A DNA stretch of 32,594 bases, taken from positions 1-32,594 of the IMG/VR virus record IMGVR_UViG_3300010388_000177. One strand, written 5' to 3'. This document shows positions 2,337-29,473 of the stretch, in pieces (the stretch's first letter is position 1; each line of letters starts with the position of its first letter). A model generated the notes under the pieces. It was not told where the DNA came from. It was given only the letters and a program-made list of their open reading frames with translations, and did no database searches. Origin of the DNA: a virus. The position numbers and the translations under genes were made by a program.

Positions 2337-3443
2337 TTATTGTAAGATTGCTTTTGCGCTCCATTGATGACGGCACCAAGGTGTTGTGTTCGGGCCTCTT
2401 TTGCCACCAGGTGTTGTATAAAAACCACCTTTATATTGAAACACATCAGGCGGATTAATTCCCATCTTAATCAAGTGTGAATTTGATAATTGTTGAATTT
2501 CATCATAAGTATAAGTTTTACCAAGATTTGTTTCACAGAAAGGTCGGCTTGAACCACCTTCTTTTAATGGCGGAGCATCAGGTCGTAATTCATATGTATA
2601 AACAACTTTAATGCTTACAAACTTCATATCAAATTCATTTATCATATCTTGTGCTGCTTTGGCTTCATCGAGGTTATTGATTACAATCGATTTAAGAACA
2701 TTAAAATCATTTTTGATACTTCCCATCAAATTCATTCTTTCGATGATTGGATCGGCTCCTGTAAGCAATAAATCATATTCATATTTATTATCAAGTTCTT
2801 TAACTTCACCAAACACAAGCGCATCTTCATTTAAGTTTGCTTGTTTTAATTTATTCCAAACCTTTTTATCTTTACGATAAATCTTTCTTGCCGATCTGAT
2901 ATGAACTTTGAAACCTGCTTCTTTATATTGTTTTGCGATTTCAGGATCGAAATCTTCATTGAAAATAACTTTCTTACTTTTACCAAACTTATAACCAATA
3001 CCAGGCAGAGCATCAACAACATCAGAATTGTTATCAATATGTTTATCAATTCCTAATTCTTTAATCTTTTCTTCTTTTGCTTTGTTTGAGCCAGTGGCAT
3101 AAACTCGTGAGTGAGGAATTCCTAATTCGTCAGCAACTGCCAACATACCTTCTTTATCACTTCTTGCTGATATGATATAAACATCATCGCCTCTTTCAAT
3201 TGCGGCAATTGCCAATTCTTTTCCACGGCTTGTTGAAAGCGTGTCGTCGTAATCAAAACTTACTTTTGAAAAGTTTATTTCTGCTGGTGGAAAGTCAGTT
3301 GATGCTGATGCTCCAAAGTTTTCCCACTTTGAATAACATATAGCCGCCGCTTGTGAAGGATCGACACCGTTTGCGATTTCAATTCCTATACAACGACCCA
3401 TAAATTCATCTTTACTTTCGCCTTCTTTCTTATTTATTGGCAT
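2337..3443 (-). CDS. Composite protein: phage head-type N-terminal motif, HAD-like domain, MuF-like C-terminus
   Basis: A 368-residue protein with three recognisable parts. Residues 11-42 carry the motif F-x2-RC...DPSQAAAICYSKW, which resembles a short module found in phage head and protease proteins. Residues 60-150 look like a HAD-superfamily domain: DYDDT (64-68) as the nucleophile motif, IISARS (90-95) as motif II, a Lys-rich stretch near 122-128 and DNNSD (137-141) as motif IV. Residues 285-362 (RPFC, GGFYTTPGGKRG, PWCRHQW) resemble the C-terminal segment of MuF-like minor head proteins. It is the last gene of the minus-strand block. The HAD part suggests a phosphatase or nucleotidase, with substrate unknown. 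Why head-type modules are fused to it is unclear. Confidence 0.6.
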   Translation of the reverse strand: MPINKKEGESKDEFMGRCIGIEIANGVDPSQAAAICYSKWENFGASASTDFPPAEINFSKVSFDYDDTLSTSRGKELAIAAIERGDDVYIISARSDKEGMLAVADELGIPHSRVYATGSNKAKEEKIKELGIDKHIDNNSDVVDALPGIGYKFGKSKKVIFNEDFDPEIAKQYKEAGFKVHIRSARKIYRKDKKVWNKLKQANLNEDALVFGEVKELDNKYEYDLLLTGADPIIERMNLMGSIKNDFNVLKSIVINNLDEAKAAQDMINEFDMKFVSIKVVYTYELRPDAPPLKEGGSSRPFCETNLGKTYTYDEIQQLSNSHLIKMGINPPDVFQYKGGFYTTPGGKRGPNTTPWCRHQWSAKAILQ

Positions 3444-3490
3444 AATCTTAATGATTTCTTTTTATATTATGTTTGATAAACCGCAATTGT

Positions 3491-3709
3491 TTATTTTACA
3501 CCACCATTATCATACCACCAAGTTTTTAATCGATTATAAACCCTTTGACGGCAACCACCACAAGATTTTGAATACTCCATATGATCTGGATAAACTCGAT
3601 TATGAAGATTGAATAATCTTGTTATAACTTCTGCGTTATGATTATGATTTTCTTTTCCGACTAATGATTTCATTAAATCATCGACTTCGTTAAATAATTC
3701 GTTATTCAT
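3491..3709 (-). CDS. Small CxxC protein (72 aa), unknown function
   Basis: A 72-residue protein beginning MNNELFNEVDDLMKSLVG. I chose the ATG at 3709 because it overlaps the stop of the upstream gene as ATGA (3706-3709); a longer frame to 3757 would overlap that gene by 52 bases. The C-terminal half holds SCGGCRQRVYNRLKTWW, a CxxC followed by a basic helix. Small phage proteins of Bacteroidota often carry this pattern, and it may bind zinc or nucleic acid. Translational coupling to the membrane protein gene upstream is likely. No family name can be given. Confidence 0.65.
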   Translation of the reverse strand: MNNELFNEVDDLMKSLVGKENHNHNAEVITRLFNLHNRVYPDHMEYSKSCGGCRQRVYNRLKTWWYDNGGVK

Positions 3710-3966
3710 ATTGTTCTGTTTAATTTTTGATAAATAAGTTCTGATATAATTCCACATAATGCCGCTCCTATAATATCTATTTGATTGAAAGCAAAAAGTT
3801 TATACCAAAAGTATAAATGAAATGACGAACACATCGCACATTCAAGTAATCTGAAATACCAAGTTGTTTCATTTTTTAAGATTAATCTTCTTAATCTTAT
3901 CGTTGGCTCTGACGCAATCCACATTACACCAATCGCCGCAATTCCAATTATTAGTTCCCAAGGCAT
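3706..3966 (-). CDS. Small membrane protein with CxxC (DUF1360-like pattern)
   Basis: An 86-residue protein with a hydrophobic N-terminal segment (residues 3-18), a basic stretch (RLRRLILK), then LLECAMCSSFHLYFW (41-54) and a second hydrophobic segment (64-78). The CxxC next to an aromatic membrane segment resembles the 'C-x2-C-x-G-F-W' pattern of small DUF1360-type membrane proteins in phages and bacteria. It overlaps the sigma-like gene upstream by 16 bases and the CxxC gene downstream by 4, so it is part of a tight operon. It probably sits in the inner membrane. A holin role cannot be excluded but is not shown. Confidence 0.6.
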   Translation of the reverse strand: MPWELIIGIAAIGVMWIASEPTIRLRRLILKNETTWYFRLLECAMCSSFHLYFWYKLFAFNQIDIIGAALCGIISELIYQKLNRTI

Positions 3967-4574
3967 CTTTCTTTAATTTTATTTTTTAATTCGTTTATCA
4001 TATTATAAACGGCTGAAAGTGGAATATCAAGTTTCTTACTTATGGCACGCATCGGCATCATATTTGTAAAATAAAGATCCCACATTACTTTATCGTGAGT
4101 TTCCATCTTTAAGTATATCTGTCGTAATCGTGTTAAGTTAATGACTTGTTCTTCACCAAAGTTTCTGTGTAAATCCATTAACCAATCTTTAATATCTTCA
4201 CGCTCAACATCACAATAAATATCTATGAATTGTTCTTCGCTTCCTTCATATTCACCATCATCAAAGAAATCTTTATTAACTGAATTTGAAAAGCCACGAT
4301 CGTTATCATCATACTTTACATCAGGATTAAGATTATTAACTGCGATTGATTTATTAAAATCTGAATTTCGCCAATTAACTGAATTCTTCATCCAGGTTTG
4401 CGTGAATTTTATTCGTTGTTCGTTATCGGGTATGTTATTAAACTTAACCCAATTCTTATCAAGATATAAAACATAATGCGCCAGTAATTCCCTCCACTCG
4501 ACAGGATGCCAATGTTTAGCCCATCTTTCAAGAATATTGTAATTATCTTCAATCCATATACCACCGTTCATCAA
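3951..4574 (-). CDS. Sigma-factor-like regulator with C-terminal HTH
   Basis: A 207-residue protein resembling the sigma-like proteins of Bacteroidota phages. The N-terminal half (residues 10-75) is helical and Trp-rich (ERWAKHWHPVEWRELLAHYV and QRIKFTQTWMKNSVNWRN), like the helices of a region-2 domain. An acidic linker (87-127) follows. Residues 144-205 resemble region 4, with a helix-turn-helix around 174-197 (MRAISKKLDIPLSAVYNMI). This arrangement fits a protein that recruits host RNA polymerase to phage promoters. A second sigma-like gene lies 12 bases upstream in transcription order (4587-4985), so the two may act together or in sequence. Divergence makes a DNA-binding regulator without sigma activity possible. 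Confidence 0.55.
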   Translation of the reverse strand: MMNGGIWIEDNYNILERWAKHWHPVEWRELLAHYVLYLDKNWVKFNNIPDNEQRIKFTQTWMKNSVNWRNSDFNKSIAVNNLNPDVKYDDNDRGFSNSVNKDFFDDGEYEGSEEQFIDIYCDVEREDIKDWLMDLHRNFGEEQVINLTRLRQIYLKMETHDKVMWDLYFTNMMPMRAISKKLDIPLSAVYNMINELKNKIKERCLGN

Positions 4575-4586
4575 GATTATTTAATT

Positions 4587-4985
4587 TTATATGGAAAACA
4601 CTCCATTGCCGTCATTTGCGCCATCAAGTGAAACAAGTTGAATTTCGTTGTTATCATCACCTTTCTTGCCGTAAATCTTTTTATAGCCAGCCGCAACACC
4701 ACGCTTGAATATTTCCGTCATATACGAAAAAGCGTTATCACCCTTGCCTTCATCGAAATTATACCAATTAGCAAACATTTGAATATAACCATTTTGTAAG
4801 CAATCAAGTTTATCATCTTGATTTTTGTAATAAAACTTTTTGATGATGTTTTTGCCTAAAAGAATAAGCATCTTTTCAGCATTTCTTGTAAGTTTGCCTT
4901 GTGCTTTTGAAACAATTAATTCACAATATAAATCTTTTGAAGATAAATATTCTTTACTTTTCTTTGTAATATACTTTTCAGACAT
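4587..4985 (-). CDS. T4 gp55-like (late) sigma factor candidate
   Basis: A 132-residue protein. Residues 60-107 match the pattern of the conserved core of gp55-type phage sigma factors: a short helix with DCLQNGYIQMF, then NWYNFDEGKGDNAFSYMTEI, then KRGVAAGYKKIYGKKG. In known members this reads as 'NFD..K..NAF.Y.T.I....F...' and corresponds to sigma region 2, which binds the beta' clamp and the -10 DNA. There is no obvious region 4, as in T4 gp55, which needs a coactivator for upstream contacts. It overlaps the 90-residue gene upstream by 8 bases. A role in switching polymerase to late phage promoters is inferred. Confidence 0.65.
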   Translation of the reverse strand: MSEKYITKKSKEYLSSKDLYCELIVSKAQGKLTRNAEKMLILLGKNIIKKFYYKNQDDKLDCLQNGYIQMFANWYNFDEGKGDNAFSYMTEIFKRGVAAGYKKIYGKKGDDNNEIQLVSLDGANDGNGVFSI

Positions 4986-5250
4986 TTAATATCATTTCAA
5001 TTTTTTTATCACGCTTCTTTTCAATGATTAATCGATCTATGATATCACAACAATCTTCAAAGTTTTCAATTGTTTGTTTCTTATAAATGATGTAATGACT
5101 TTTAAGAACTTCAATTCCTTTATGAATATCGATTTCTTCTATGTAAAACAGATTATCTTTATCAATTTGATTTGTTTCTTTCCAGTAATGATAAACTGAT
5201 GTTCCACGCTTACAGATAACTAATCTTTTAACGATTATTCTTTTATTCAA
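4978..5250 (-). CDS. Unknown 90-aa protein with probable TTG start
   Basis: A 90-residue basic protein beginning NKRIIVKRLVICKRG after the start. The first possible start is TTG at 5250-5248, which overlaps the stop of the zinc-finger gene upstream as TTGA, the same geometry as the ATGA overlaps elsewhere in this operon. No ATG occurs in frame until the last few codons, so TTG is the best choice. It is mixed alpha/beta with a Cys pair (FEDCCDIID) and a Lys/Arg-rich end. It lies directly before the gp55-like gene, overlapping it by 8 bases. No family recognised; a regulatory role is only suggested by position. Confidence 0.6.
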   Translation of the reverse strand: MNKRIIVKRLVICKRGTSVYHYWKETNQIDKDNLFYIEEIDIHKGIEVLKSHYIIYKKQTIENFEDCCDIIDRLIIEKKRDKKIEMILNV

Positions 5251-5900
5251 CTCATTGCTTTATTTTTATCGTATATCTGTTTTAAATCTTTCAACATATA
5301 TATTATTTGACCTTCCATTTCCATATTATCATAACCTTTTCCGTTTAACAAGTTTTCTTCACCCATTACACTTAAATAAAGATCGACTAATCTGAAATGA
5401 TCGACTGGATCATAACCACCAAACTTATATCTTACAATTATCAATCTTATTGCTTCAAGTATATGCTTATCAAGTCGTGCGTTCTTTAACTTATCTTTCT
5501 TTTCTTTTGAAGATAACATATCACGAATTGGAACATAACATCTTTTACAAAGTGATTTTGTTGTTCGATCCAATATTTCATCACCACACTTATCACACTT
5601 TTTTCCACCAACCTTTCTATAAATTCTGGCATAACAAGTTCGGCAATATTGGCTTGATGCTTTTTTAATTGGTTTGCCTCGTTTGTTTGTTCCACCGAAT
5701 AATCCACCACACGATAAACAATTTTCAGTAATGATGCGTTTTCCATCTTCATCATACTTAATGTTGTTGTTGGCACAATCCCTTCTTTTAACATAATGAT
5801 TATATGAATAACAACGATGGCAATTGCCTTTTGATCTTTCTTTGAATTCATCAGTGAATTCTTTTTTACATCTTAAACAATGAGTATGTAATGGTTTCAT
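5247..5900 (-). CDS. Triple zinc-ribbon/finger protein (217 aa)
   Basis: A 217-residue protein with three four-cysteine groups that look like zinc sites: C8/C11/C27/C30, C61/C64/C86/C89 and C102/C105/C118/C121, each as paired CxxC motifs. The linkers are Lys/Arg-rich, suggesting nucleic-acid binding. The C-terminal third (residues 140-212) is helical, with YDPVDHFRLVDLYLSVMGEE, and has no cysteines. It begins a transcription unit: a terminator for the preceding genes lies just upstream and a sigma70-like promoter candidate is at 5915-5942. It heads the operon with both sigma-like genes, so a regulatory role is reasonable but unproven. Confidence 0.6.
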   Translation of the reverse strand: MKPLHTHCLRCKKEFTDEFKERSKGNCHRCYSYNHYVKRRDCANNNIKYDEDGKRIITENCLSCGGLFGGTNKRGKPIKKASSQYCRTCYARIYRKVGGKKCDKCGDEILDRTTKSLCKRCYVPIRDMLSSKEKKDKLKNARLDKHILEAIRLIIVRYKFGGYDPVDHFRLVDLYLSVMGEENLLNGKGYDNMEMEGQIIYMLKDLKQIYDKNKAMS

Positions 5901-5914
5901 ATTACTTTATATGA

Positions 5915-5942
5915 ATTATAAGCCAGTAAGTTTATAAAACAA
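5915..5942 (-). promoter_or_regulatory. Candidate sigma70-like promoter for the sigma-factor operon
   Basis: Read on the minus strand: TTGTTT at 5942-5937, a 16-base spacer, then TATAAT at 5920-5915, with the start codon at 5900. The -10 match is perfect but AT-rich DNA gives such matches by chance. Placement just after a terminator and before a new gene run supports it. Confidence 0.35.
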
Positions 5943-5972
5943 AAAAGCCATCATACTCGAATGACGGCCTTT
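5940..5972 (-). terminator. Intrinsic terminator after the 68-aa zinc protein gene
   Basis: On the minus strand, a stem pairs 5961-5972 with 5944-5954 around a 6-base loop, with one bulge and one G-U pair. It is followed by a run of U from the A tract at 5941-5946. It lies 25 bases after the stop of the gene at 5997-6203 and would end transcripts from the upstream minus-strand genes. Confidence 0.7.
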
Positions 5973-5996
5973 AAGCATATGAAACAAAGAAAAGTT

Positions 5997-6203
5997 TTAC
6001 TTGTTTTTAAGATTTCTTTTATATTCTTTCTGGTAAATGTTCCACTTTTCAGGGTGTTTTTGTTGGTAAGTTTGATAACCTTTTGCTTTTCTTCTTAACC
6101 AAGAACACTTTTTACAAAAGTTTAACTTCCACTTTTTTCTTACTGATTGAAAATCATCGATTGACTTTTCTTGATTACAATCGATACAAACCTTTGTAAT
6201 CAT
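5997..6203 (-). CDS. Small four-cysteine zinc protein (68 aa), HNH-associated type
   Basis: A 68-residue protein with C6/C9 and C30/C33 separated by KSIDDFQSVRKKW, then a basic Tyr/Lys-rich tail. This layout is the zinc knuckle often found in front of HNH or endonuclease VII-like nucleases in phages, but here the nuclease part is missing. The 58-residue protein at 9074-9250 has the same layout. Its ATG overlaps the stop of the upstream gene by one base (TAATG at 6203), showing translational coupling. It probably binds zinc and nucleic acid. Confidence 0.65.
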   Translation of the reverse strand: MITKVCIDCNQEKSIDDFQSVRKKWKLNFCKKCSWLRRKAKGYQTYQQKHPEKWNIYQKEYKRNLKNK

Positions 6204-6874
6204 TATAACCAGTTATTTTGTTGTCGTTTATTGATTGCGGCGATAACTTCGTTTAAGAATTCAATATCTTTTGGTGTGTCGATATTCGCTTTGAACTTTG
6301 GTGAAACAGCAAGATCACGAGCCCATATACACCACTCTTTAAATGCTATTAATGACTTAAAGTTTTCAATAATGCTTTCAAGTGATTTAACATTACAACC
6401 GATATATCTTTTATCACGACGAATATAAATGTGTTTATCATCAACATAATCAAAAAGCCCTAACCAAAGTTTTGGTTGCTTTATTGTTTTTTCATCAATT
6501 TCATCGACTTCGATAAATGTTCTTTTCTTACCTGACTGATAAGTAATTGTGATTGATCGAATATCATCTTCAACAGGTTTAACTTCTTTAATTCCATCAA
6601 GACCTTTAACAAATTCAGTAAGTGTTCTTTTACTTAAATCTTGTGCGATTACAAAGTTTAATTGTTTGATGATATAATCGTGATGATTAAATAAAGTATA
6701 ATCAGACATACCAATCATTTTACTTTGTGCCGCTAATTTGCCTGCTGTTGATTTGATTATTGTTTTAATGTTTGATAAGTTTGGTGCTTCTTTTCCATAC
6801 ATACGAAAAACTTCATCAACAATTTTGTTTAATTTAACCTTTGTTTCAGGTTTAAGAAATGTTTTTTTACTCAT
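6203..6874 (-). CDS. Unknown 223-aa basic protein
   Basis: A 223-residue Lys-rich protein. The N-terminal third is helical (KVKLNKIVDEVFRMYG, then SAGKLAAQSKM-like helices). The middle (about residues 100-145) is beta-rich (SITITYQSGKKRTFIEVDEID). The C-terminal third contains WLGLFDYVDDKHIYIRRDKRYIGCNV and a Trp-rich helix (FKEWCIWARDL). It is the largest unknown in the minus-strand block and is coupled to the zinc protein gene that follows. I recognise no family. A DNA-binding or replication-related role would fit its charge and position but is speculation. Confidence 0.6.
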   Translation of the reverse strand: MSKKTFLKPETKVKLNKIVDEVFRMYGKEAPNLSNIKTIIKSTAGKLAAQSKMIGMSDYTLFNHHDYIIKQLNFVIAQDLSKRTLTEFVKGLDGIKEVKPVEDDIRSITITYQSGKKRTFIEVDEIDEKTIKQPKLWLGLFDYVDDKHIYIRRDKRYIGCNVKSLESIIENFKSLIAFKEWCIWARDLAVSPKFKANIDTPKDIEFLNEVIAAINKRQQNNWL

Positions 6875-6913
6875 AATAATATTTTTTATTTTTAAGTTAT
6901 ATGCCTTATTTTC

Positions 6914-6935
6914 AAAAAGATGGAAATTATTTTCC
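6914..6935 (-). terminator. Weak terminator-like hairpin
   Basis: On the minus strand a 5-bp stem (GGAAA/TTTCC at 6922-6935), overlapping the stop codon of the gene at 6927, is followed by a T-rich tract (6914-6918). The stem is short, so it may only reduce read-through into the next gene. Confidence 0.3.
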
Positions 6936-7253
6936 TAAAATATTTAAAATCGATAAATTTCTTATCATCTTTTTATGAATATCAGGCATCTGATCCAAGT
7001 AAGGATAAACTCCACCATCACAATTATCATACAAACTTTCAAGAAAGTCGCTGATATATCTGTAAATATATTCTATATCATCTTTACTTAAATCTTCAAA
7101 CTTAATTAAATCTTCGTGATTTATATGTTGTTCGCTTTGATTGATAAGTTGATCGTTAAGATCATCAAGAACATTATCAATTGTAAATATTTCACCAGCA
7201 ATATAATCTGGGTGTGATTGAAGTTCTTCAATTATTTCTTCTATACTTCTCAT
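6927..7253 (-). CDS. Unknown acidic protein (108 aa)
   Basis: A 108-residue acidic protein, mostly helical, beginning MRSIEEIIEELQSHPDYIAG and containing LSKDDIEYIYRYISDFLESL. The start overlaps the stop of the gene upstream as ATGA (7250-7253), supporting this start and coupled translation. It belongs to a group of short acidic proteins (6927-8265), the usual look of phage early host-takeover or anti-host genes. No family recognised. Confidence 0.6.
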   Translation of the reverse strand: MRSIEEIIEELQSHPDYIAGEIFTIDNVLDDLNDQLINQSEQHINHEDLIKFEDLSKDDIEYIYRYISDFLESLYDNCDGGVYPYLDQMPDIHKKMIRNLSILNILGK

Positions 7254-7567
7254 TTAAGTAAGATGTTAAGTTTTAAATCACGACGAATTGAATTAAGATT
7301 AATATCGTTTTCAACTTCATCACAATAAAGTGCGATATCAAAATCAGTCGCCAAATCATCATCGGTGTCTCGTGGTTCAATAAATTGTGCCACATAGAAC
7401 TTTCTATGTATGCCGTCAGGATCGTTCATATAAATGAAAGAACCAGGTAAAACAAGTGTTGGTAAATCACTGAAAAAGAAACCACCATCGATTAAAACAC
7501 AAAAGTATTGATAATCGTTATTTACATTGTTAAGTATATGGTTTGTTAAATTACACATATTAGTCAT
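7250..7567 (-). CDS. Unknown protein (105 aa), early-region
   Basis: A 105-residue protein with a beta-rich middle (YFCVLIDGGFFFSDLPTLVLPGSFIYMNDPDG) and an acidic second half (PRDTDDDLATDFDIALYCDEVEND). The ATG at 7567 overlaps the stop of the upstream gene by 8 bases; an in-frame ATG at 7558 would avoid the overlap and is a fair alternative. It is coupled to the next gene by an ATGA overlap. Function unknown. Confidence 0.6.
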   Translation of the reverse strand: MTNMCNLTNHILNNVNNDYQYFCVLIDGGFFFSDLPTLVLPGSFIYMNDPDGIHRKFYVAQFIEPRDTDDDLATDFDIALYCDEVENDINLNSIRRDLKLNILLK

Positions 7568-7844
7568 TTAGTAATATTTTTATTTTTTTATCACGCCCAA
7601 ACATATTGTTAATTCTTTTAAATGTGATCGCATCTTCATAATCAATCTCATTTGTTTGATTTGTGTGATCGTCAGGAAAACTTAATATAAAGTTCGGGTC
7701 ATCAAAGTCAAACGGGTTCCATAACCAATCTTCGATTTCTTCATCTTCAACGCCACAATAAATAAAGTGCTTGAATAGTTCATATGAAAAATCATCTTTA
7801 TATTCAAAAGTTTCCAAGAATTCTTTTTTTTCTATATTAATCAT
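7560..7844 (-). CDS. Unknown acidic protein (94 aa)
   Basis: A 94-residue strongly acidic protein beginning MINIEKKEFLETFEYKDDFS and containing EDEEIEDWLWNPFDFDDPNF. The charge and size resemble DNA-mimic or host-inhibitor proteins of phages, but that is only a resemblance. It starts 4 bases after the stop of the gene upstream (7849). No recognised domain. Confidence 0.55.
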   Translation of the reverse strand: MINIEKKEFLETFEYKDDFSYELFKHFIYCGVEDEEIEDWLWNPFDFDDPNFILSFPDDHTNQTNEIDYEDAITFKRINNMFGRDKKIKILLND

Positions 7845-7848
7845 ATTA

Positions 7849-8037
7849 TCAGTTGGCTAAATTATCTAAATATTTTAAGTCGTCGCTTAATTCATCAGCA
7901 TCGATTTCTTTGTTGTTTGTATATTTCCAATACATCATTGAAAGAGCATCTTCTTCGTGTTGAAAAACAATTAAATCTTTTGAATTTAAGATTGCTTTCA
8001 ACATCCATTGTTTTTGTTCGTCAGTAATTTGTTTCAT
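7849..8037 (-). CDS. Unknown small protein (62 aa)
   Basis: A 62-residue helical, acidic protein beginning MKQITDEQKQWMLKAILN and ending DELSDDLKYLDNLAN. It lies directly downstream of a well-formed Bacteroidota-type promoter (8060-8090), giving a leader of only about 15-20 bases, and is the first gene of that transcript. Function unknown. Confidence 0.55.
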   Translation of the reverse strand: MKQITDEQKQWMLKAILNSKDLIVFQHEEDALSMMYWKYTNNKEIDADELSDDLKYLDNLAN

Positions 8038-8059
8038 ATTGTCGTTTCTTTTATTTATA

Positions 8060-8090
8060 CAAAGATAGTGCTTTTATTTTATAAAAGCAA
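8060..8090 (-). promoter_or_regulatory. Bacteroidota-type promoter (TTGC-N19-TATCTTTG)
   Basis: On the minus strand, TTGC at 8090-8087 is followed by 19 bases and then TATCTTTG at 8067-8060. This matches the known Bacteroidota housekeeping promoter (-33 TTTG, about 19-21 bases, -7 TAnnTTTG). The same two boxes with the same spacing occur at 9255-9285. It overlaps the 3' end of the upstream gene, including a small hairpin at 8070-8088. Confidence 0.7.
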
Positions 8091-8265
8091 CTTTCAGTAA
8101 AGAACTTTCTTTTAAATCAAAAACATTTTCAATCTTTTTTTTACGATCTTGTTTTCGATTTTCACTTTTGATATAAAGTTCTTCATATTGCTTATCAAGT
8201 TCCCAGAAATCTTCTTCTGATTGAAGATTGATTAAGTCAAAGTAATATTCTTTTGTTTTACTCAT
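8074..8265 (-). CDS. Unknown small charged protein (63 aa)
   Basis: A 63-residue highly charged helical protein beginning MSKTKEYYFDLINLQSEEDF, with the basic stretch KSENRKQDRKKKIE. I chose the ATG at 8265 over one at 8313 because the longer version would begin upstream of the -7-like box at 8303-8310 and adds a hydrophobic, unlike tail. It is the first gene left of the structured non-coding region. Function unknown. Confidence 0.5.
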   Translation of the reverse strand: MSKTKEYYFDLINLQSEEDFWELDKQYEELYIKSENRKQDRKKKIENVFDLKESSLLKVAFIK

Positions 8266-8302
8266 AGTTATTATATTATAGATTATTGTTAATGTTGGAT
8301 TA

Positions 8303-8310
8303 CAAATATA
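8303..8310 (-). promoter_or_regulatory. Candidate -7 box TATATTTG
   Basis: On the minus strand TATATTTG matches TAnnTTTG and lies about 40 bases before the ATG at 8265. No clear -33 box sits at the expected distance, so this is weaker than the promoters at 8060 and 9255. Confidence 0.4.
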
Positions 8311-8360
8311 CAAAATTTATTTTAAACTTTTTGACTTTTAACCAATATATATTTTATCAA

Positions 8361-8380
8361 AGCAATCACAAGCAATAACA
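8361..8380. repeat. Tandem decamer pair (AGCAATCACA / AGCAATAACA)
   Basis: Two adjacent 10-base units identical at 9 of 10 positions, followed by looser A-rich units to about 8400. They lie in the gene-free stretch upstream of the structured element and could be a small iteron-like or curved-DNA element, or chance. Confidence 0.4.
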
Positions 8381-8439
8381 AGATTAACGGCAACATAACA
8401 CGGGCAATTAAGAGGTAAAAGATAATTAAAGTAAATTAG

Positions 8440-8827
8440 ACATGGCTCATCGGAGATTTATTCTGCTGATAAATATGCTGTAATGGCAATGGGGGACTTG
8501 TTGTAATACTTATATTGTATATTCGATAAGAAGATTAATAAACAGAAAATCTTTTTCATTTGATATAGTTATAGGGGCCGAAACTAATTGATGTTAATGA
8601 AAATAAATCCTACACGAAATCCTTAAAAATAAGATTTAGGTCAGTAATACTAATACTCAATAGGGAAATATGTTAAATTCATAACCCGAGAAATCAACTG
8701 AGTATGTGCCGAACGGAGGTGGGCTACAATAGAGAGGTAGCATCGGAGTTAGCGCTGGAATATAGAAATTAAAAGGTCTATATTAGAATTCATTAGATAT
8801 AATTAATGAAGGTTGTAAAACTCTCTA
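8440..8827 (+). ncRNA. Candidate large structured RNA, class unknown
   Basis: No ORF of credible size exists at 8338-8824 on either strand. In 8401-8820 I count 86 G against 46 C on the plus strand, opposite to the flanking minus-strand genes and typical of a plus-sense structured RNA. Helices that can be drawn: 8456-8461/8469-8474; 8528-8536/8548-8556; 8566-8570/8582-8586; 8617-8625/8630-8637 with one bulge; 8653-8659/8699-8705 enclosing GGG/CCC and TATG/CATA; 8723-8727/8737-8741; 8759-8766/8777-8784; 8789-8795/8804-8810. The loop of the 8723 hairpin (8730-8736, TAGAGAG) is a perfect complement of 8821-8827 (CTCTCTA), which would make a pseudoknot. I cannot match it to a named class; group I intron core motifs were looked for and not found. 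Ends are approximate; no clear promoter is seen. Confidence 0.5.
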
Positions 8828-9073
8828 TGTTCTGTTGATAAATAAATCTATAAACTTATCAATATTACAATCCGACCAAATATTGAATTTGTAATCTATA
8901 TTTGATATTCTGTTTAATCTTCCACCCGCTGGGTAGTAATCATAAACAAATCCATCAAATTCAAACTTATAAAAATGTTGATAAACATTAACATGATACT
9001 TATTCATAAAGTCAGGCAAAACTTCCGCTTTGAACCTTTCAACATTTTTCTTTTTTTCTATTTTAGTTGCCAT
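8825..9073 (-). CDS. Unknown 82-aa protein
   Basis: An 82-residue protein beginning MATKIEKKKNVERFKAEVLP, with an aromatic-rich middle (YQHFYKFEFDGFVYDYYPAGG) that looks like short beta strands. Its ATG abuts the stop of the zinc protein gene (TAA then ATG), so the two are one operon under the promoter at 9255-9285. Its stop (8825-8827) overlaps the right-hand strand of the pseudoknot proposed for the neighbouring RNA. Function unknown. Confidence 0.6.
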   Translation of the reverse strand: MATKIEKKKNVERFKAEVLPDFMNKYHVNVYQHFYKFEFDGFVYDYYPAGGRLNRISNIDYKFNIWSDCNIDKFIDLFINRT

Positions 9074-9250
9074 TTAATCTTTCAGTTTTAATCTTTGAAT
9101 TTTAATCTTTAATTTATTATTTTGATAAAACTTTCTGTTCTTTGCTTTATCACAATCCTTACAATAAGGTCGTAAGCCATCTTTATCACGCTTCTGACCG
9201 TAGAAATCGCTCAACGATTTCGTTTCCAAACATCTTTTACATTGCTTCAT
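9074..9250 (-). CDS. Small four-cysteine zinc protein (58 aa), HNH-associated type
   Basis: A complete 58-residue ORF, ATG at 9250 and TAA at 9076-9074. C4/C7 and C30/C33 enclose LETKSLSDFYGQKRDKDGL, then a Lys/Arg-rich tail (KAKNRKFYQNNKLKIKIQRL). The pattern C-x2-C-x3-K-x3-DF...GLR.YCK.C is the zinc knuckle usually found upstream of HNH/endonuclease VII domains, here standing alone. It shares the layout of the protein at 5997-6203. The promoter at 9255-9285 would start RNA within a few bases of the ATG, so the message may be nearly leaderless. Confidence 0.7.
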   Translation of the reverse strand: MKQCKRCLETKSLSDFYGQKRDKDGLRPYCKDCDKAKNRKFYQNNKLKIKIQRLKLKD

Positions 9251-9254
9251 AAAA

Positions 9255-9285
9255 CAAAGATAAGGAACTTATTTCAATCTGGCAA
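9255..9285 (-). promoter_or_regulatory. Bacteroidota-type promoter (TTGC-N19-TATCTTTG)
   Basis: On the minus strand TTGC at 9285-9282, a 19-base spacer, then TATCTTTG at 9262-9255. Boxes and spacing are identical to the promoter at 8060-8090. The expected start of transcription falls at about 9248-9251, on or beside the ATG at 9250. This is the first promoter of the minus-strand block. Confidence 0.75.
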
Positions 9286-9297
9286 GTTTAAAATAAA

Positions 9298-9331
9298 AAA
9301 AGAGCAAGAAATATTAAAAACTTGCTCTTTT
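9298..9331. terminator. Strong terminator-like hairpin in the divergent intergenic region
   Basis: An 11-bp perfect stem (9298-9308 with 9321-9331; core GAGCAAG/CTTGCTC) around a 12-base loop, with A tract before and T tract after, so it works on either strand. It lies between divergent transcription units. It may stop plus-strand transcripts coming from the RNA candidate region, or attenuate transcripts entering the genes at 9480. No gene ends next to it. Confidence 0.6.
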
Positions 9332-9347
9332 CATTATATGATTGAAC

Positions 9348-9425
9348 GAATAAGATAAGGTAAAATCAATAACAACCAAAGGCGATTATCTTATTCATAT
9401 GTTATATTAAAAAGGTTTGCCTTTG
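9348..9425 (+). promoter_or_regulatory. Competing inverted repeats upstream of the ParB-like gene
   Basis: An 11-bp perfect inverted repeat pairs 9348-9358 with 9386-9396 (AATAAGATAA/TTATCTTATT core). A second one pairs CAAAGGC (9377-9383) with GCCTTTG (9419-9425). Its left arm lies in the loop of the first and its own loop contains the first's right arm, so only one can form at a time. This resembles an attenuator or an operator pair. The rest of 9251-9479 holds no gene. Confidence 0.45.
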
Positions 9426-9479
9426 TTTTAAATAAACTTAATTATTATTTCATCATATAACAATAAAGGAAAAAATATT

Positions 9480-10004
9480 ATGAATATCGAAAAAGTAAAT
9501 ATCAATTCAGTAAAAGCAAATAAGTTAAATCCAAGGATTATCAAGAACGATAAGTTTTATAAACTTGTAAATTCAATCAAAGAATTTCCTGAAATGTTGA
9601 AAATCCGACCAATCGTTGTTGATGAAGATATGATTGTTCTTGGTGGTAATATGCGTTTGAAAGCGTGTAAAGAAGCCGACTTAAAAGAAATATGGATCAT
9701 TAAAGCAAACGACTTAACAGAAGAACAAAAGAAAGAATTCATTATTAAAGATAATGTTGGTTATGGTGAGTGGGATTTCGAAATCTTAAAATCAGATTGG
9801 GAAGAAGAACTTCTTGAAGATTGGGGCCTTGATATAGATTTCATTGAAGTTAATGTTGATGACGATGAAGATGATGAAGAAGAAGAACAACCAAACATTA
9901 GTCAGTTATGGTTCTTAAATATACAAATGGATAACGAAGCACAATGCCAGATGTGGTATGAAAAGTTATCATCAGAAGGATTAAATTGTAAAATCGTTCA
10001 ATAA
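9480..10004 (+). CDS. ParB-like domain protein
   Basis: A 174-residue protein with the ParB/Spo0J N-terminal fold pattern. It has LNPRI (16-20), then EFPEMLKIRPIVVDEDMIVLGGNMRLKA (35-62) in which GGNMR replaces the usual G-E-R-R box, and EEQKKEFIIKDNVGYGEWD (81-99). An acidic linker (126-137, nearly all Asp/Glu) leads to a small C-terminal domain (WFLNIQMDNEAQCQMWYEKL). Proteins of this type are common beside terminase genes in Bacteroidota phages. Proposed roles include DNA binding, nuclease activity or packaging control, none proven. It is the first gene of the plus-strand run, preceded by AAAGGA about 9 bases before the ATG, one of the few SD-like sites here. Confidence 0.75.
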   Translation: MNIEKVNINSVKANKLNPRIIKNDKFYKLVNSIKEFPEMLKIRPIVVDEDMIVLGGNMRLKACKEADLKEIWIIKANDLTEEQKKEFIIKDNVGYGEWDFEILKSDWEEELLEDWGLDIDFIEVNVDDDEDDEEEEQPNISQLWFLNIQMDNEAQCQMWYEKLSSEGLNCKIVQ

Positions 10005-10020
10005 AAAAAGAATAACAAAT

Positions 10021-11238
10021 ATGAATTTTCCAAAAAAAATAGAAATCAAATTACAAAGTGATGTTTTCAAAAACTTTCGATGCCAGATGGCCGCAAATTC
10101 ACTCGACATCGATGCTGAAAAGAAATCAATTCATCAATTAACAATCAACAACATAAATATACCAGAAGATTGGAACATTGGTTTAATCTATGGTTCATCA
10201 GGTTCAGGCAAAACAACATTAGTTAAAACTTTATTTGGTGAAAAAACATTTGATATTGAAATCAATGAAGATGAACCGATTTTAAATCAAATGCCAAGCG
10301 ACTTAACTTATGAAGAGTGTGCTAACTTATTAAGCGGCATTGGTTTGAATTCTGTGCCTTGTTGGATCCGACCTGTTAAAACACTTTCAAACGGCCAACG
10401 AGCAAGAGCAGAAGCCGTTCTTTTAATGTGTCGTGCCTTAAAAGGCGAAATCGTTTTCATCGATGAATGGACTTCTGTTGTCGATCGAACCGTAGCAAAA
10501 GCAATGTCGTTATGTTTATCAAAGTTCGCAAAAAGAAATAACAAAAAGATTATCTTGTTAAGTTGCCATTATGATATCATCGAGTGGTTATTACCTGATT
10601 GGATGATTGATTGTAATAAACAAGAATTCATACTTCCGAAAGCGGAGGATTTTTTTTTTGAAAGAAGAGATGAACTCCAATTCGACATCAAAGAAATCGA
10701 TAAATCAACCTGGAAGTATTTTAGCAAATATCATTATTTAAGTGATAAGTTGCCCGCAGGAAGAATTTACTTATATGGAATATTTCACGGCGATAATCAA
10801 ATTGGCTTTCAATGCTTTGCGAATTACACACCAAAGGCAAAAGGTCAGCCGTGGCAATTTCATTTCAACAGAACGGTTATACATCCAGATTATAATGGTT
10901 TAGGATTAGGCATTAAACTAATTAATGAAACATCAAGATTACTTCTTGATAAACTTCCAACAGAAGGATTATCCAATTCACAAGATGGTTTTAAGATAAT
11001 GGGTAAGTTTTCATCTATTCCAGTTTTCAAAGCAATGTCGAAACAAAAGTGTTGGAAGTTTCTTGGTGAAAAAAGAACAATGGGTGCCTTAAAAGGTGGA
11101 GCAAAGTTTGGAAGAGCAGAAGCCGATAAAAAGAAAGCAAGTAATGGTTCTTATTCAGGTGGTTCAACATCTGGTTTCAGGCAATATGGAATAAAAACAT
11201 TTCACTTTGAATTTAAATATAATAAATATGTTTTATGA
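10021..11238 (+). CDS. ABC-type ATPase fused to a GNAT-like acetyltransferase domain
   Basis: A 405-residue protein in two halves. Residues 50-200 form an ABC ATPase: Walker A GSSGSGKTT (58-66), signature LSNGQ (122-126), Walker B IVFIDE (144-149) and an H-loop His at 183. There are no membrane segments, so it is not a transporter. Residues 225-330 look like a GNAT fold, with VIHPDYNGLGLGIKLI (286-301) as the acetyl-CoA loop. The C-terminus has a Gly/Ser linker and an aromatic strand. Fusions of this kind sit upstream of terminase in several phage groups; the substrate is unknown. It overlaps the GIY-YIG gene by 4 bases (ATGA), so the two are cotranslated. Confidence 0.75.
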   Translation: MNFPKKIEIKLQSDVFKNFRCQMAANSLDIDAEKKSIHQLTINNINIPEDWNIGLIYGSSGSGKTTLVKTLFGEKTFDIEINEDEPILNQMPSDLTYEECANLLSGIGLNSVPCWIRPVKTLSNGQRARAEAVLLMCRALKGEIVFIDEWTSVVDRTVAKAMSLCLSKFAKRNNKKIILLSCHYDIIEWLLPDWMIDCNKQEFILPKAEDFFFERRDELQFDIKEIDKSTWKYFSKYHYLSDKLPAGRIYLYGIFHGDNQIGFQCFANYTPKAKGQPWQFHFNRTVIHPDYNGLGLGIKLINETSRLLLDKLPTEGLSNSQDGFKIMGKFSSIPVFKAMSKQKCWKFLGEKRTMGALKGGAKFGRAEADKKKASNGSYSGGSTSGFRQYGIKTFHFEFKYNKYVL

Positions 11239-13113: not shown

Positions 13114-13719
13114 ATGATAAAAACCTGGGATGATATAACAATCAGCATATGGCAAGAACTTGAAGCGATTGAAGCCGATAATGAAATAACAAGATTTATA
13201 AATCAAATATCAATTATCACAGATACTGATATAGATGAAATCAGATCTATGCCTGTAATTAAATTTAATAAGTTAAGAGATGACTTAAAGTTTATGAACG
13301 AAGCACCAAATAAAGAAGTTGTTGTTAAGTTTGAAATTGATGGTGTAAAGTATGGCATTATTCCTCAAATGGATTTCATTACAGCAGGTGAGTGGATCGA
13401 TGCTGAAAACTGGAAAGATAAAGTCGATGAAAACATACATTTATATTCTGCTTTGATATACCGACCAATAACAAAAGAAACGGCAACACATCACGAAATC
13501 GAACCTCATACATCATCTGGTTTTCTTGAACGAGCAAATCTATTCAAAGAAAGATTGCCGATAACGACCGTATATGGTGCCGTTCTTTTTTTTTCGAGTT
13601 TCGTAATGGGACTTACCAAAGTTTTAGCGGATTATTTGATGGAGGAGCATCAGGAGAACTTGACGAAGATTACGACGACGAAAGCGACCCGAACACATAC
13701 GAAGAAGCAAAACGATTAG
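13114..13719 (+). CDS. Probable tail assembly chaperone (short, unshifted product)
   Basis: A 201-residue protein beginning MIKTWDDITISIWQEL. Features typical of the tail assembly chaperones of Bacteroidota siphoviruses are a helical N-terminus (FINQISIITDTDIDEI), a middle with GVKYGIIPQMDFITAGEWIDAENW, and a hydrophobic helix after LPITTVYGAVLFFSS. The last 20 residues (KITTTKATRTHTKKQND) look like out-of-frame coding, because a better reading frame overlaps here in the -1 phase. A nine-T run at 13586-13594 lies at the changeover. I read this as the G-type product of a G/GT pair that helps build the tail around the tape measure. Its place beside terL, 10 kb from the tape measure gene, is unusual. 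Confidence 0.6.
   Translation: MIKTWDDITISIWQELEAIEADNEITRFINQISIITDTDIDEIRSMPVIKFNKLRDDLKFMNEAPNKEVVVKFEIDGVKYGIIPQMDFITAGEWIDAENWKDKVDENIHLYSALIYRPITKETATHHEIEPHTSSGFLERANLFKERLPITTVYGAVLFFSSFVMGLTKVLADYLMEEHQENLTKITTTKATRTHTKKQND
13586..13594 (+). other. Slippery nine-T run, probable -1 frameshift site
   Basis: Frame 0 reads CTT TTT TTT TCG here, so a T TTT TTT slip site is present. A -1 shift joins the N-terminal part to the open frame that runs to 13877. A one-base sequencing error in the T run would give the same appearance. Confidence 0.6.
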
Positions 13720-13877
13720 CATTTCAAAAGAATTGGGGTTTATATGATATGTTGGCTCGATTGGCTGATGGCGACCTTCTTAAAATTCAAGAATATTATA
13801 AACTGCCAATCAAGTCAGTTTTTAATCACCTTTCATATCAGGTTTCAGGTGGAATAAAAACAAACAAACAAAATTAA
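13590..13877 (+). CDS. Tail assembly chaperone, -1 frame extension (GT-like)
   Basis: This open frame of 95 codons has no upstream start of its own and is reached by a -1 shift at 13586-13594. The fusion would be about 254 residues. The segment contains an acidic linker (GELDEDYDDESDPNTYEEA), then LAFQKNWGLYDMLARLADGD and IQEYYKLPIKSVFNHLSY. This resembles the C-terminal 'KKWGW...L...L...D..K....' module of chaperone fusions in related phages. It fills the space up to the next gene (13891) exactly. It is far better protein sequence than the frame-0 ending, so I consider it expressed, most likely as a fusion. Confidence 0.6.
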   Translation, partial: FFEFRNGTYQSFSGLFDGGASGELDEDYDDESDPNTYEEAKRLAFQKNWGLYDMLARLADGDLLKIQEYYKLPIKSVFNHLSYQVSGGIKTNKQN

Positions 13878-13890
13878 AACATATACTAAT

Positions 13891-14373
13891 ATGATAGGAT
13901 ATTTAAGTCAAAATGGAGTTAATAAGATGTTTAATCAGTGGGCTGATGCCGATCCAAACATCAATCAATATGGTTTCGGTCAGTTGTATAATGAAAATGG
14001 TGAGCCAAAAGTAAAACAAGTTTATGCTGGCATGTGGGTTAATCCAGTCAGCACGAGTGTAAATGAATATACATTACTTCGTCAATATCAAATCTTGATT
14101 TATGATTTGGTGTTTCTTGATGCCAATGGTAATTCAAATCAAAATGCTGTTGTTTCTGATTGTGAAGAAATTGCTTTTCGATTAACAAGATTTTTGAATT
14201 ATCAATCTGACTTATTCATATTATCAGGTGTTCCAACAATTACACCTTTTAACGACAGGTTCGTCGATGATGTTTCAGGAGTTATATTGGATATCACGAT
14301 TGAGTTTAATGGTGAAAGCAGCACTTGTGAAGATCCTGATTATAACTTCAACATACAAAATAATCAAATATAA
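13891..14373 (+). CDS. Probable tail completion/terminator-type structural protein
   Basis: A 160-residue protein beginning MIGYLSQNGVNKMFNQWADAD. It contains a central beta region (YQILIYDLVFLDANGNSNQNAVVSDCEE), a helix (IAFRLTRFLN) and a C-terminal strand (VILDITIEFNGESSTC). The pattern of a measured strand, a 'D..E.A..L...L' helix and a final beta strand fits small tail terminator or neck proteins. Its stop overlaps the fibre gene start by one base (TAATG at 14371-14375). Family assignment is by general pattern and position only. Confidence 0.5.
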   Translation: MIGYLSQNGVNKMFNQWADADPNINQYGFGQLYNENGEPKVKQVYAGMWVNPVSTSVNEYTLLRQYQILIYDLVFLDANGNSNQNAVVSDCEEIAFRLTRFLNYQSDLFILSGVPTITPFNDRFVDDVSGVILDITIEFNGESSTCEDPDYNFNIQNNQI

Positions 14374-28995: not shown

Positions 28996-29020
28996 TGAAT
29001 TTCCACTACGAATAGATTTG

Positions 29021-29055
29021 AAAAAAGCCACGACCTAATAAGTTGTGGCTTTTTT
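29021..29055 (+). terminator. Strong intrinsic terminator after the tail tube gene
   Basis: A 14-bp stem (29021-29034 with 29042-29055; core GCCACGAC/GTTGTGGC with one G-U) with a 7-base loop, six A before and six T after. The GCCAC core and the flanking A and T runs resemble the terminator at 2306-2333. It ends the capsid/tail transcript. Confidence 0.85.
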
Positions 29056-29094
29056 CATTTAAATAAAAACAACTTTCTTTTTAACAACATATCA

Positions 29095-29102
29095 TATAAA
29101 TA
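29095..29102 (+). promoter_or_regulatory. Candidate late promoter box TATAAATA
   Basis: TATAAATA lies 12 bases before the ATG at 29114 and directly after a terminator, so a new promoter is expected here. It equals the T4 late promoter -10 box recognised by gp55, and this phage encodes a gp55-like protein. In such AT-rich DNA a chance match is quite possible. Confidence 0.35.
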
Positions 29103-29113
29103 ACCTTAAAGAA

Positions 29114-29473
29114 ATGATATACTTAACACCAGGAATAACACAATCAGTTTGGATGAGTTTAAGGGAAAGCATCAGTTATGGTTCAACAGCAAGTTTCAAA
29201 TTCACCTTCACAAATGATATGACGGGCAACAGCAAAATCTTTTATCCAACAGATTTACAACCCGACAACAAGTGGAGCCGATTTGATATTGTTGCTGGAA
29301 CACCTGAAAACTTACTTATTCCTCGAATTGATATGCGCCAAGGTATGTGGTCGTATAAAGTCGAGGCTGGAACGACATTACTTGAAACTGGCAAAGTTAT
29401 GGTTGAAGAAACAAAAGATTGGATTACTTTGGATCGACCAGCAAAAGATATTAAGGTTTTAAAAAGAAATTAA
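29114..29473 (+). CDS. Small structural protein (119 aa) upstream of the portal
   Basis: A 119-residue beta-rich protein (FKFTFTNDMTGNSKIFYPTDL, WSRFDIVAGTPENLLI, RQGMWSYKVEAGTTLLETGK). It resembles small proteins often found between tail and portal genes in Bacteroidota phages; an immunoglobulin-like or head-decorating fold is likely. It is the first gene after the terminator at 29021-29055. It lies 3 bases before the portal gene, so it probably belongs to the head or connector. Confidence 0.5.
   Translation: MIYLTPGITQSVWMSLRESISYGSTASFKFTFTNDMTGNSKIFYPTDLQPDNKWSRFDIVAGTPENLLIPRIDMRQGMWSYKVEAGTTLLETGKVMVEETKDWITLDRPAKDIKVLKRN

Follow-up and report, generated by a model that had tools for sequence, protein, structure and literature searches.

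The longest gene-free interval of a 32.6-kb virus record ascribed to a Bacteroidota phage (IMGVR_UViG_3300010388_000177) is non-coding. The interpretation that we place first, at somewhat less than even confidence, is that of a real non-coding spacer, equipped with a leftward promoter and a cluster of 3'-end hairpins. The whole stretch of 32,594 nucleotides, referred to as the window, was analysed, and its gene block 2337-9250, which is read leftwards, contains the interval together with the following features:

8314-8824, no strand: gene-free interval of 511 bases, the longest gap in the window, with 30% G+C against 15-29% in most other gaps
8390-8728, both strands: middle of the spacer, with a plus strand rich in purines and G, a minus strand rich in C and poor in G, and no structure on either strand by z-score
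8825-9073, minus strand: gene of 82 amino acids whose 3' end abuts the spacer, its stop codon (8825-8827) lying inside a closing helix

Coding potential and composition of the interval

In agreement with the preliminary description, which had reported an element free of open reading frames, none of at least 60 amino acids is present in any of the six frames of 8314-8824. A codon model trained on the window's own genes, with the best of six frames scored in 150-nt windows, gave values of -0.23 to -0.55 across 8390-8790; all are below +0.03, the 1st percentile for gene windows, and shuffling of the interval gives an average of -0.35. With the stop codons TGA read as W and TAG as Q, singly or together, no frame of more than 50 codons opened up. 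For the six-frame read-throughs of the interval, PHROG gave no match at E≤1 and Pfam only a chance-like plant domain below the cut-off. Codon scores, recoded frames and family searches therefore define the interval as non-coding and without sign of a broken gene. This also applies to a frameshifted protein gene spanning the interval, the counter-explanation raised in the preliminary description, which was searched for and not found in any frame. Alternative genetic codes, a decayed gene and tandem repeats were likewise tested and are unsupported. The second long gap of the window, 593-966, holds two small plus-strand genes, and the gap at 13720-13890, between the genes 13114-13719 and 13891-14373, is partly coding-like and possibly represents an extension or broken end of the 13114 gene.

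The count of 86 G and 46 C on the plus strand of 8401-8820, given previously together with a skew reversed against the flanking minus-strand genes, is exact. With 30-31% G+C the interval is near gene level, and its plus strand is purine-rich, A-rich and richer in G than in C; the same numbers describe a leftward transcript that is rich in C and poor in G. Gene-like G+C content and G>C composition constitute the strongest point in favor of an RNA gene, since structured RNAs of AT-rich genomes are enriched in intergenic regions that are long and comparatively rich in G+C, the basis of the GC-IGR approach (PMC6429828).

Gene-like G+C and the purine bias of the plus strand would also be compatible with a former plus-sense gene, eroded or inserted, which lost its frame and left only its purine-rich composition behind, and a possibly truncated zinc-ribbon/endonuclease-VII-like ORF nearby (9074-9250) makes DNA traffic by homing-type genes plausible. 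However, no 150-nt window has a frame that scores as high as the 1st percentile for gene windows, read-through of stops retrieves no Pfam or PHROG family save the plant domain mentioned above, and in comparison with the window's own proteins none of the matches listed exceeded shuffled controls. We regard such an origin as improbable. The nearby ORF itself, on the minus strand, encodes a zinc ribbon of 58 amino acids and matches only the N-terminal part of endonuclease VII/HNH families (phrog_1035, E 2e-11); it is either a truncated homing-type endonuclease or a stand-alone ribbon.

A sensitive self-BLAST of the record, which may be an incomplete genome, yielded only short AT-rich matches and thus neither a near-copy of the interval elsewhere in the record nor the template repeat of a diversity-generating retroelement. 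Short words recur toward the two ends of the interval at near chance level, namely TTCTG[CT]TGATAAATA at 8461-8475 and 8830-8844, and CATCGGAG at 8449-8456 and 8742-8749.

Folding of the plus strand and the proposed RNA

A gene for a plus-sense non-coding RNA, spanning roughly 8390-8828 (about 400-440 nt), belonging to an undescribed class and acting in trans during infection, is a doubtful yet serious competitor of the spacer interpretation. Its 3' domain would comprise a stem at 8653-8659/8699-8705, a GCUAC hairpin, two perfect hairpins and an 8-bp pairing between loop and tail. The elements concerned are:

8723-8741, plus strand: alternative hairpin GCUAC-AAUAGAGAG-GUAGC, seen in the fold of 8650-8760, whose loop would form the proposed pseudoknot
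8729-8828, both strands: 100-nt element with an 8-bp closing helix (8729-8736/8821-8828) around two perfect hairpins, overlapping the stop codon of the minus-strand gene
8759-8784, both strands, symmetrical: perfect 8-bp hairpin (AATATAGA/TCTATATT)
8789-8810, both strands, symmetrical: perfect 7-bp hairpin (TTCATTA/TAATGAA)

A long gene-free stretch in a compact genome, the composition of its plus strand, the absence of a codon signal and the exact 8-bp complement between loop and tail all speak for such a gene. The folding statistics, on the other hand, argue against it. When scored against dinucleotide shuffles, the plus strand of 8400-8830 has a minimum free energy of -78.2 kcal/mol, compared to -81.7 ± 5.5 kcal/mol for the shuffles (z +0.64), whereas the similar-sized RNase P RNA of E. 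coli (rnpB, 377 nt), used as positive control, reaches z -2.98 in the same test. In 150-nt sliding windows and on an unselected genome-wide grid of 130-nt windows, z over 8400-8720 stays near 0 or is positive, which is ordinary for this genome (grid median -0.3), so that excess stability is found neither for 8400-8830 as a whole nor for its windows. The preliminary description had portrayed the element as hairpin-rich, with at least eight short-range helices, three of them perfect over 7-8 bp. Two perfect Watson-Crick stems of this length do exist (8759-8766/8777-8784 and 8789-8795/8804-8810; 0.49 expected, p 0.068), the third is absent, and stems of at least 6 bp including G-U pairs number seven, against 6.5 expected (p 0.48). 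The sole nominally low value among twelve tests was obtained for stems of at least 8 bp with G-U pairs (four against 1.5 expected, p 0.014), and an exact match of at least 8 between a loop and its flank is present in 5.8% of the shuffles. Although the sequence had been described accurately, the structural argument drawn from it is no better than chance.

Neither a promoter (8300-8480) nor a terminator of the RNA gene was found on the plus strand, and no relative emerged from the Infernal search against Rfam that the preliminary description had proposed. None of the Rfam 15 families, including GOLLD and ROOL, exceeded its gathering score, also when a permissive threshold was tried; the top match below the cut-off, Fungi_SRP, attained 21.7 bits instead of 65, mainly through an 11-nt GCUGUAAUGGC hairpin. 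ARAGORN and Rfam detected no tRNA or tmRNA in the interval and no tRNA in the window, and a host tRNA or tmRNA as source of the interval is unsupported. A group I or II intron was rejected, there being no Rfam match and the flanking genes being antisense to the supposed RNA rather than halves of one gene. ROOL env-120 measures 659 nt and GOLLD often more than 800 nt, and these covariation-supported RNAs are frequently located near tRNA islands (PMC12286853). The interval resembles them as a non-coding stretch of a phage genome with proposed loop-loop or pseudoknot potential, but differs in that it measures about 400 nt, matches no Rfam family, shows no excess folding and lies in a window devoid of tRNAs.

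Composition and non-coding state fit the plus-sense RNA of the preliminary description, but the tests and searches described here gave no finding that establishes it. An RNA of about 400 nt and of an undescribed class in a Bacteroidota phage, closed at its 3' end by the 8-bp loop/tail pairing and possessing a fold that minimum-free-energy statistics miss, is in our view rather unlikely.

Hairpin cluster and leftward signals at the borders of the spacer

The complementarity between a hairpin loop (8730-8736) and 8821-8827, on which the proposed pseudoknot was based, is real and even extends over 8 bp (8729-8736, ATAGAGAG; 8821-8828, CTCTCTAT), but given its frequency in shuffles it does not surpass chance. 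Moreover, when 8700-8830 is folded alone, the program gives up the GCUAC/GUAGC hairpin and selects the 8-bp pairing as an ordinary nested helix closing around the two perfect hairpins, instead of a pseudoknot. This yields an element of 100 nt with near symmetry between the two strands. It is on the minus strand that 8700-8830 stands out, with z -3.37 and a stability beating 200 of 200 shuffles (plus strand z -1.35), and the unselected grid window 8701-8830 of the minus strand has z -2.76, where the 5% quantile is -2.47. The element includes the stop codon 8825-8827 of the minus-strand gene and is therefore explained at least as well by a structure at the 3' end of the leftward mRNA as by a pseudoknot of the plus strand.

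The opposite end of the spacer carries promoter-like sequences:

8303-8310, minus strand: promoter element TATATTTG(T), read TATATTTGT leftward, an exact -7 box 38 nt upstream of position 8265, the likely ATG of the 8074-8265 gene
8349-8386, minus strand: two weaker leftward promoter-like sites, TATATTGG at 8349 and TAATCTTG at 8386, both preceded by TTG at a distance of 18-19 nt
8356-8382, no strand: 10-bp direct repeat (ATCACAAGCA) in 2.8 copies just upstream of the leftward promoter, a possible operator

The sites were judged by the Bacteroidota sigma-A criterion, which asks for TTG about 19-20 nt ahead of a -7 box TAnnTTTG, the sequence known for sigma-A of flavobacteria (PMC9723704). The box at 8310-8303 matches the -7 sequence exactly, and full promoters of the form TTG-N20-TATCTTTG are found leftward in the same gene block at 9285-9255 and 8090-8060, before the genes starting at 9250 and 8037. 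Unlike a complete promoter of the flavobacterial type, the spacer's own promoter has an imperfect -33 partner with no perfect TTG. AT-rich promoter stretches like the 8303-8310 region match three related phages (L011, L018 and L068). In 8300-8480, the plus strand has no site combining TTG with a TAnnTTTG-type box by the Bacteroidota consensus, from which phage-specific promoters may differ.

A consensus scan of 7500-10100 for intrinsic terminators, limited to loops of up to 8 nt, found none; the hairpin at 9298-9331, with its 12-nt loop, falls outside this limit. This hairpin is a perfect 11-bp helix (9298-9308/9321-9331, AAAAGAGCAAG/CTTGCTCTTTT) with T-runs on either side, and the surrounding 9278-9340 has z about -3.4 on both strands; it appears to act as an intrinsic terminator in both directions, separating the leftward promoter from the rightward ParB operon. 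The strongest-folding 130-nt windows of the record, 2201-2330 and 29001-29130 (z about -6, plus strand), lie in intergenic gaps, the former at the convergence of rightward and leftward gene blocks and probably representing a terminator.

Taken as a spacer, the interval would separate two leftward transcription units of the phage. The hairpins at 8729-8828, overlapping the stop codon of the upstream unit (9250 to 8825), would provide its mRNA with a 3' hairpin, the supposed pseudoknot arm being one side of the 8-bp closing helix. Beyond the stop codon, where translation ceases, the C-rich, G-poor and unfolded middle of the leftward transcript may allow Rho to load, so that transcription would be terminated inside the spacer and restart at the next promoter, the region formed by 8303-8310 and the weaker sites and direct repeats at 8349-8386, which would serve the 8265-to-8074 gene. 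This reading assumes that the phage uses host sigma and Rho. Consistent with an open RNA, shuffles fold better than the minus strand of 8400-8700 (z +0.8 to +1.7). The C/G ratio of the minus strand in the spacer, taken per 78 nt, has a median of 1.67 and a maximum of 3.2 immediately behind the stop codon, compared to a median of 0.78 in sense coding sequence. The value of 1.67 corresponds to the 75th-90th percentile genome-wide and is thus moderate rather than extreme. The RhoTermPredict criterion demands a 78-nt region with C>G, in which Cs recur at intervals of 11-13 nt, and a pause site behind it (PMC6407284); C ladders of this style are sparse in the spacer, with three overlapping starts at 8503-8530, and are commoner antisense to genes elsewhere. 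In comparison with a Rho-dependent terminator, the spacer RNA of the minus strand is thus alike in being unfolded and richer in C than in G after the 8825 stop codon, but unlike in its few regular C ladders, its excess length and a C/G ratio that is not extreme for the genome. Because the C excess is moderate and the ladder sparse, we infer the Rho step rather than observe it. Further points against the spacer reading are the length of 511 bp, which is large both for a phage spacer and for a single terminator, a G+C content near that of genes and unlike that of other gaps, the lack of a U-tract after the 3' hairpins, and the -7 element at 8303 having no clear -33 partner.

The position of the interval also raises the possibility of a DNA-level element, such as a replication origin, packaging or partition site. 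A ParB-domain gene (9480-10004) is found about 650 bp away, the cumulative GC skew reaches its minimum nearby (about 9400), and the interval contains short direct repeats. However, the skew minimum tracks the switch in gene orientation, the direct repeats are few in number and short, the ParB-like protein belongs to nuclease/methyltransferase-associated families, and relatives with the same ParB-ATPase pair mostly lack such a spacer; a role of this kind is accordingly very improbable. Ahead of the ParB-like gene, 9340-9435 (z -1.9) forms a possible leader structure, in which the loop of an 11-bp stem (9348-9358/9386-9396) contains one arm of a second stem (9374-9383/9419-9428), a geometry suggestive of an H-type pseudoknot or a switch.

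Search for relatives and implications

BLAST of the interval against 50,697 phage records and 72,556 plasmids returned short chance matches only. Eight scans of IMG/VR were carried out via the ATPase, the terminase, the two neighbouring genes and exact core DNA patterns. The ATPase retrieved 78 loci with up to 68% identity and the terminase 27 loci with about 40-43% identity over most of the length, plus one partial match at 48%; the two neighbouring genes retrieved no loci, and in the exact-core scans every low-G+C match had a coding context. GTDB genomes yielded no loci for the terminase and two for the ATPase. In the fetched loci (3.5 Mb), sensitive blastn and nhmmer uncovered only AT-rich promoter-like and chance matches, BLAST against 50 records gave nothing beyond such matches, and none of the phages with the nearest terminases (about 40-43%) carries the element. 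Hence, the interval has no detectable homologue among phage, plasmid and reachable IMG/VR records, of which near-identical ones might escape the search, and this adds to the evidence against an RNA gene.

Dozens of phages carry the ParB-domain and ABC/AAA-type ATPase pair (9480-11238) at about 55-68% identity, with terminases that reach at most about 43%; the module seems to move independently of virion genes. One phage with the same pair contains a gene-free, hairpin-rich stretch of 473 nt directly before ParB (L002:2316-2788), which was considered as a counterpart but does not align with the interval. Its z is -5.1 with a terminator-like hairpin at the 5' end and -1.96 when this hairpin is left out (2440-2730); searches of Rfam and for divergent homologues of the stretch returned nothing. 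A 'CGAAC...TGG...AGAGAG' pattern seen by eye in this stretch and in the interval is at chance level for so many comparisons.

In an AT-rich phage, a G-rich composition combined with a few AT-rich hairpins is insufficient to call a structured RNA, and 3'-end hairpins of the opposite strand together with a promoter offer a simpler reading of the interval. A discrete RNA, should one be demonstrated in the interval, would extend the large phage RNAs, a group still without known roles, by a new one.
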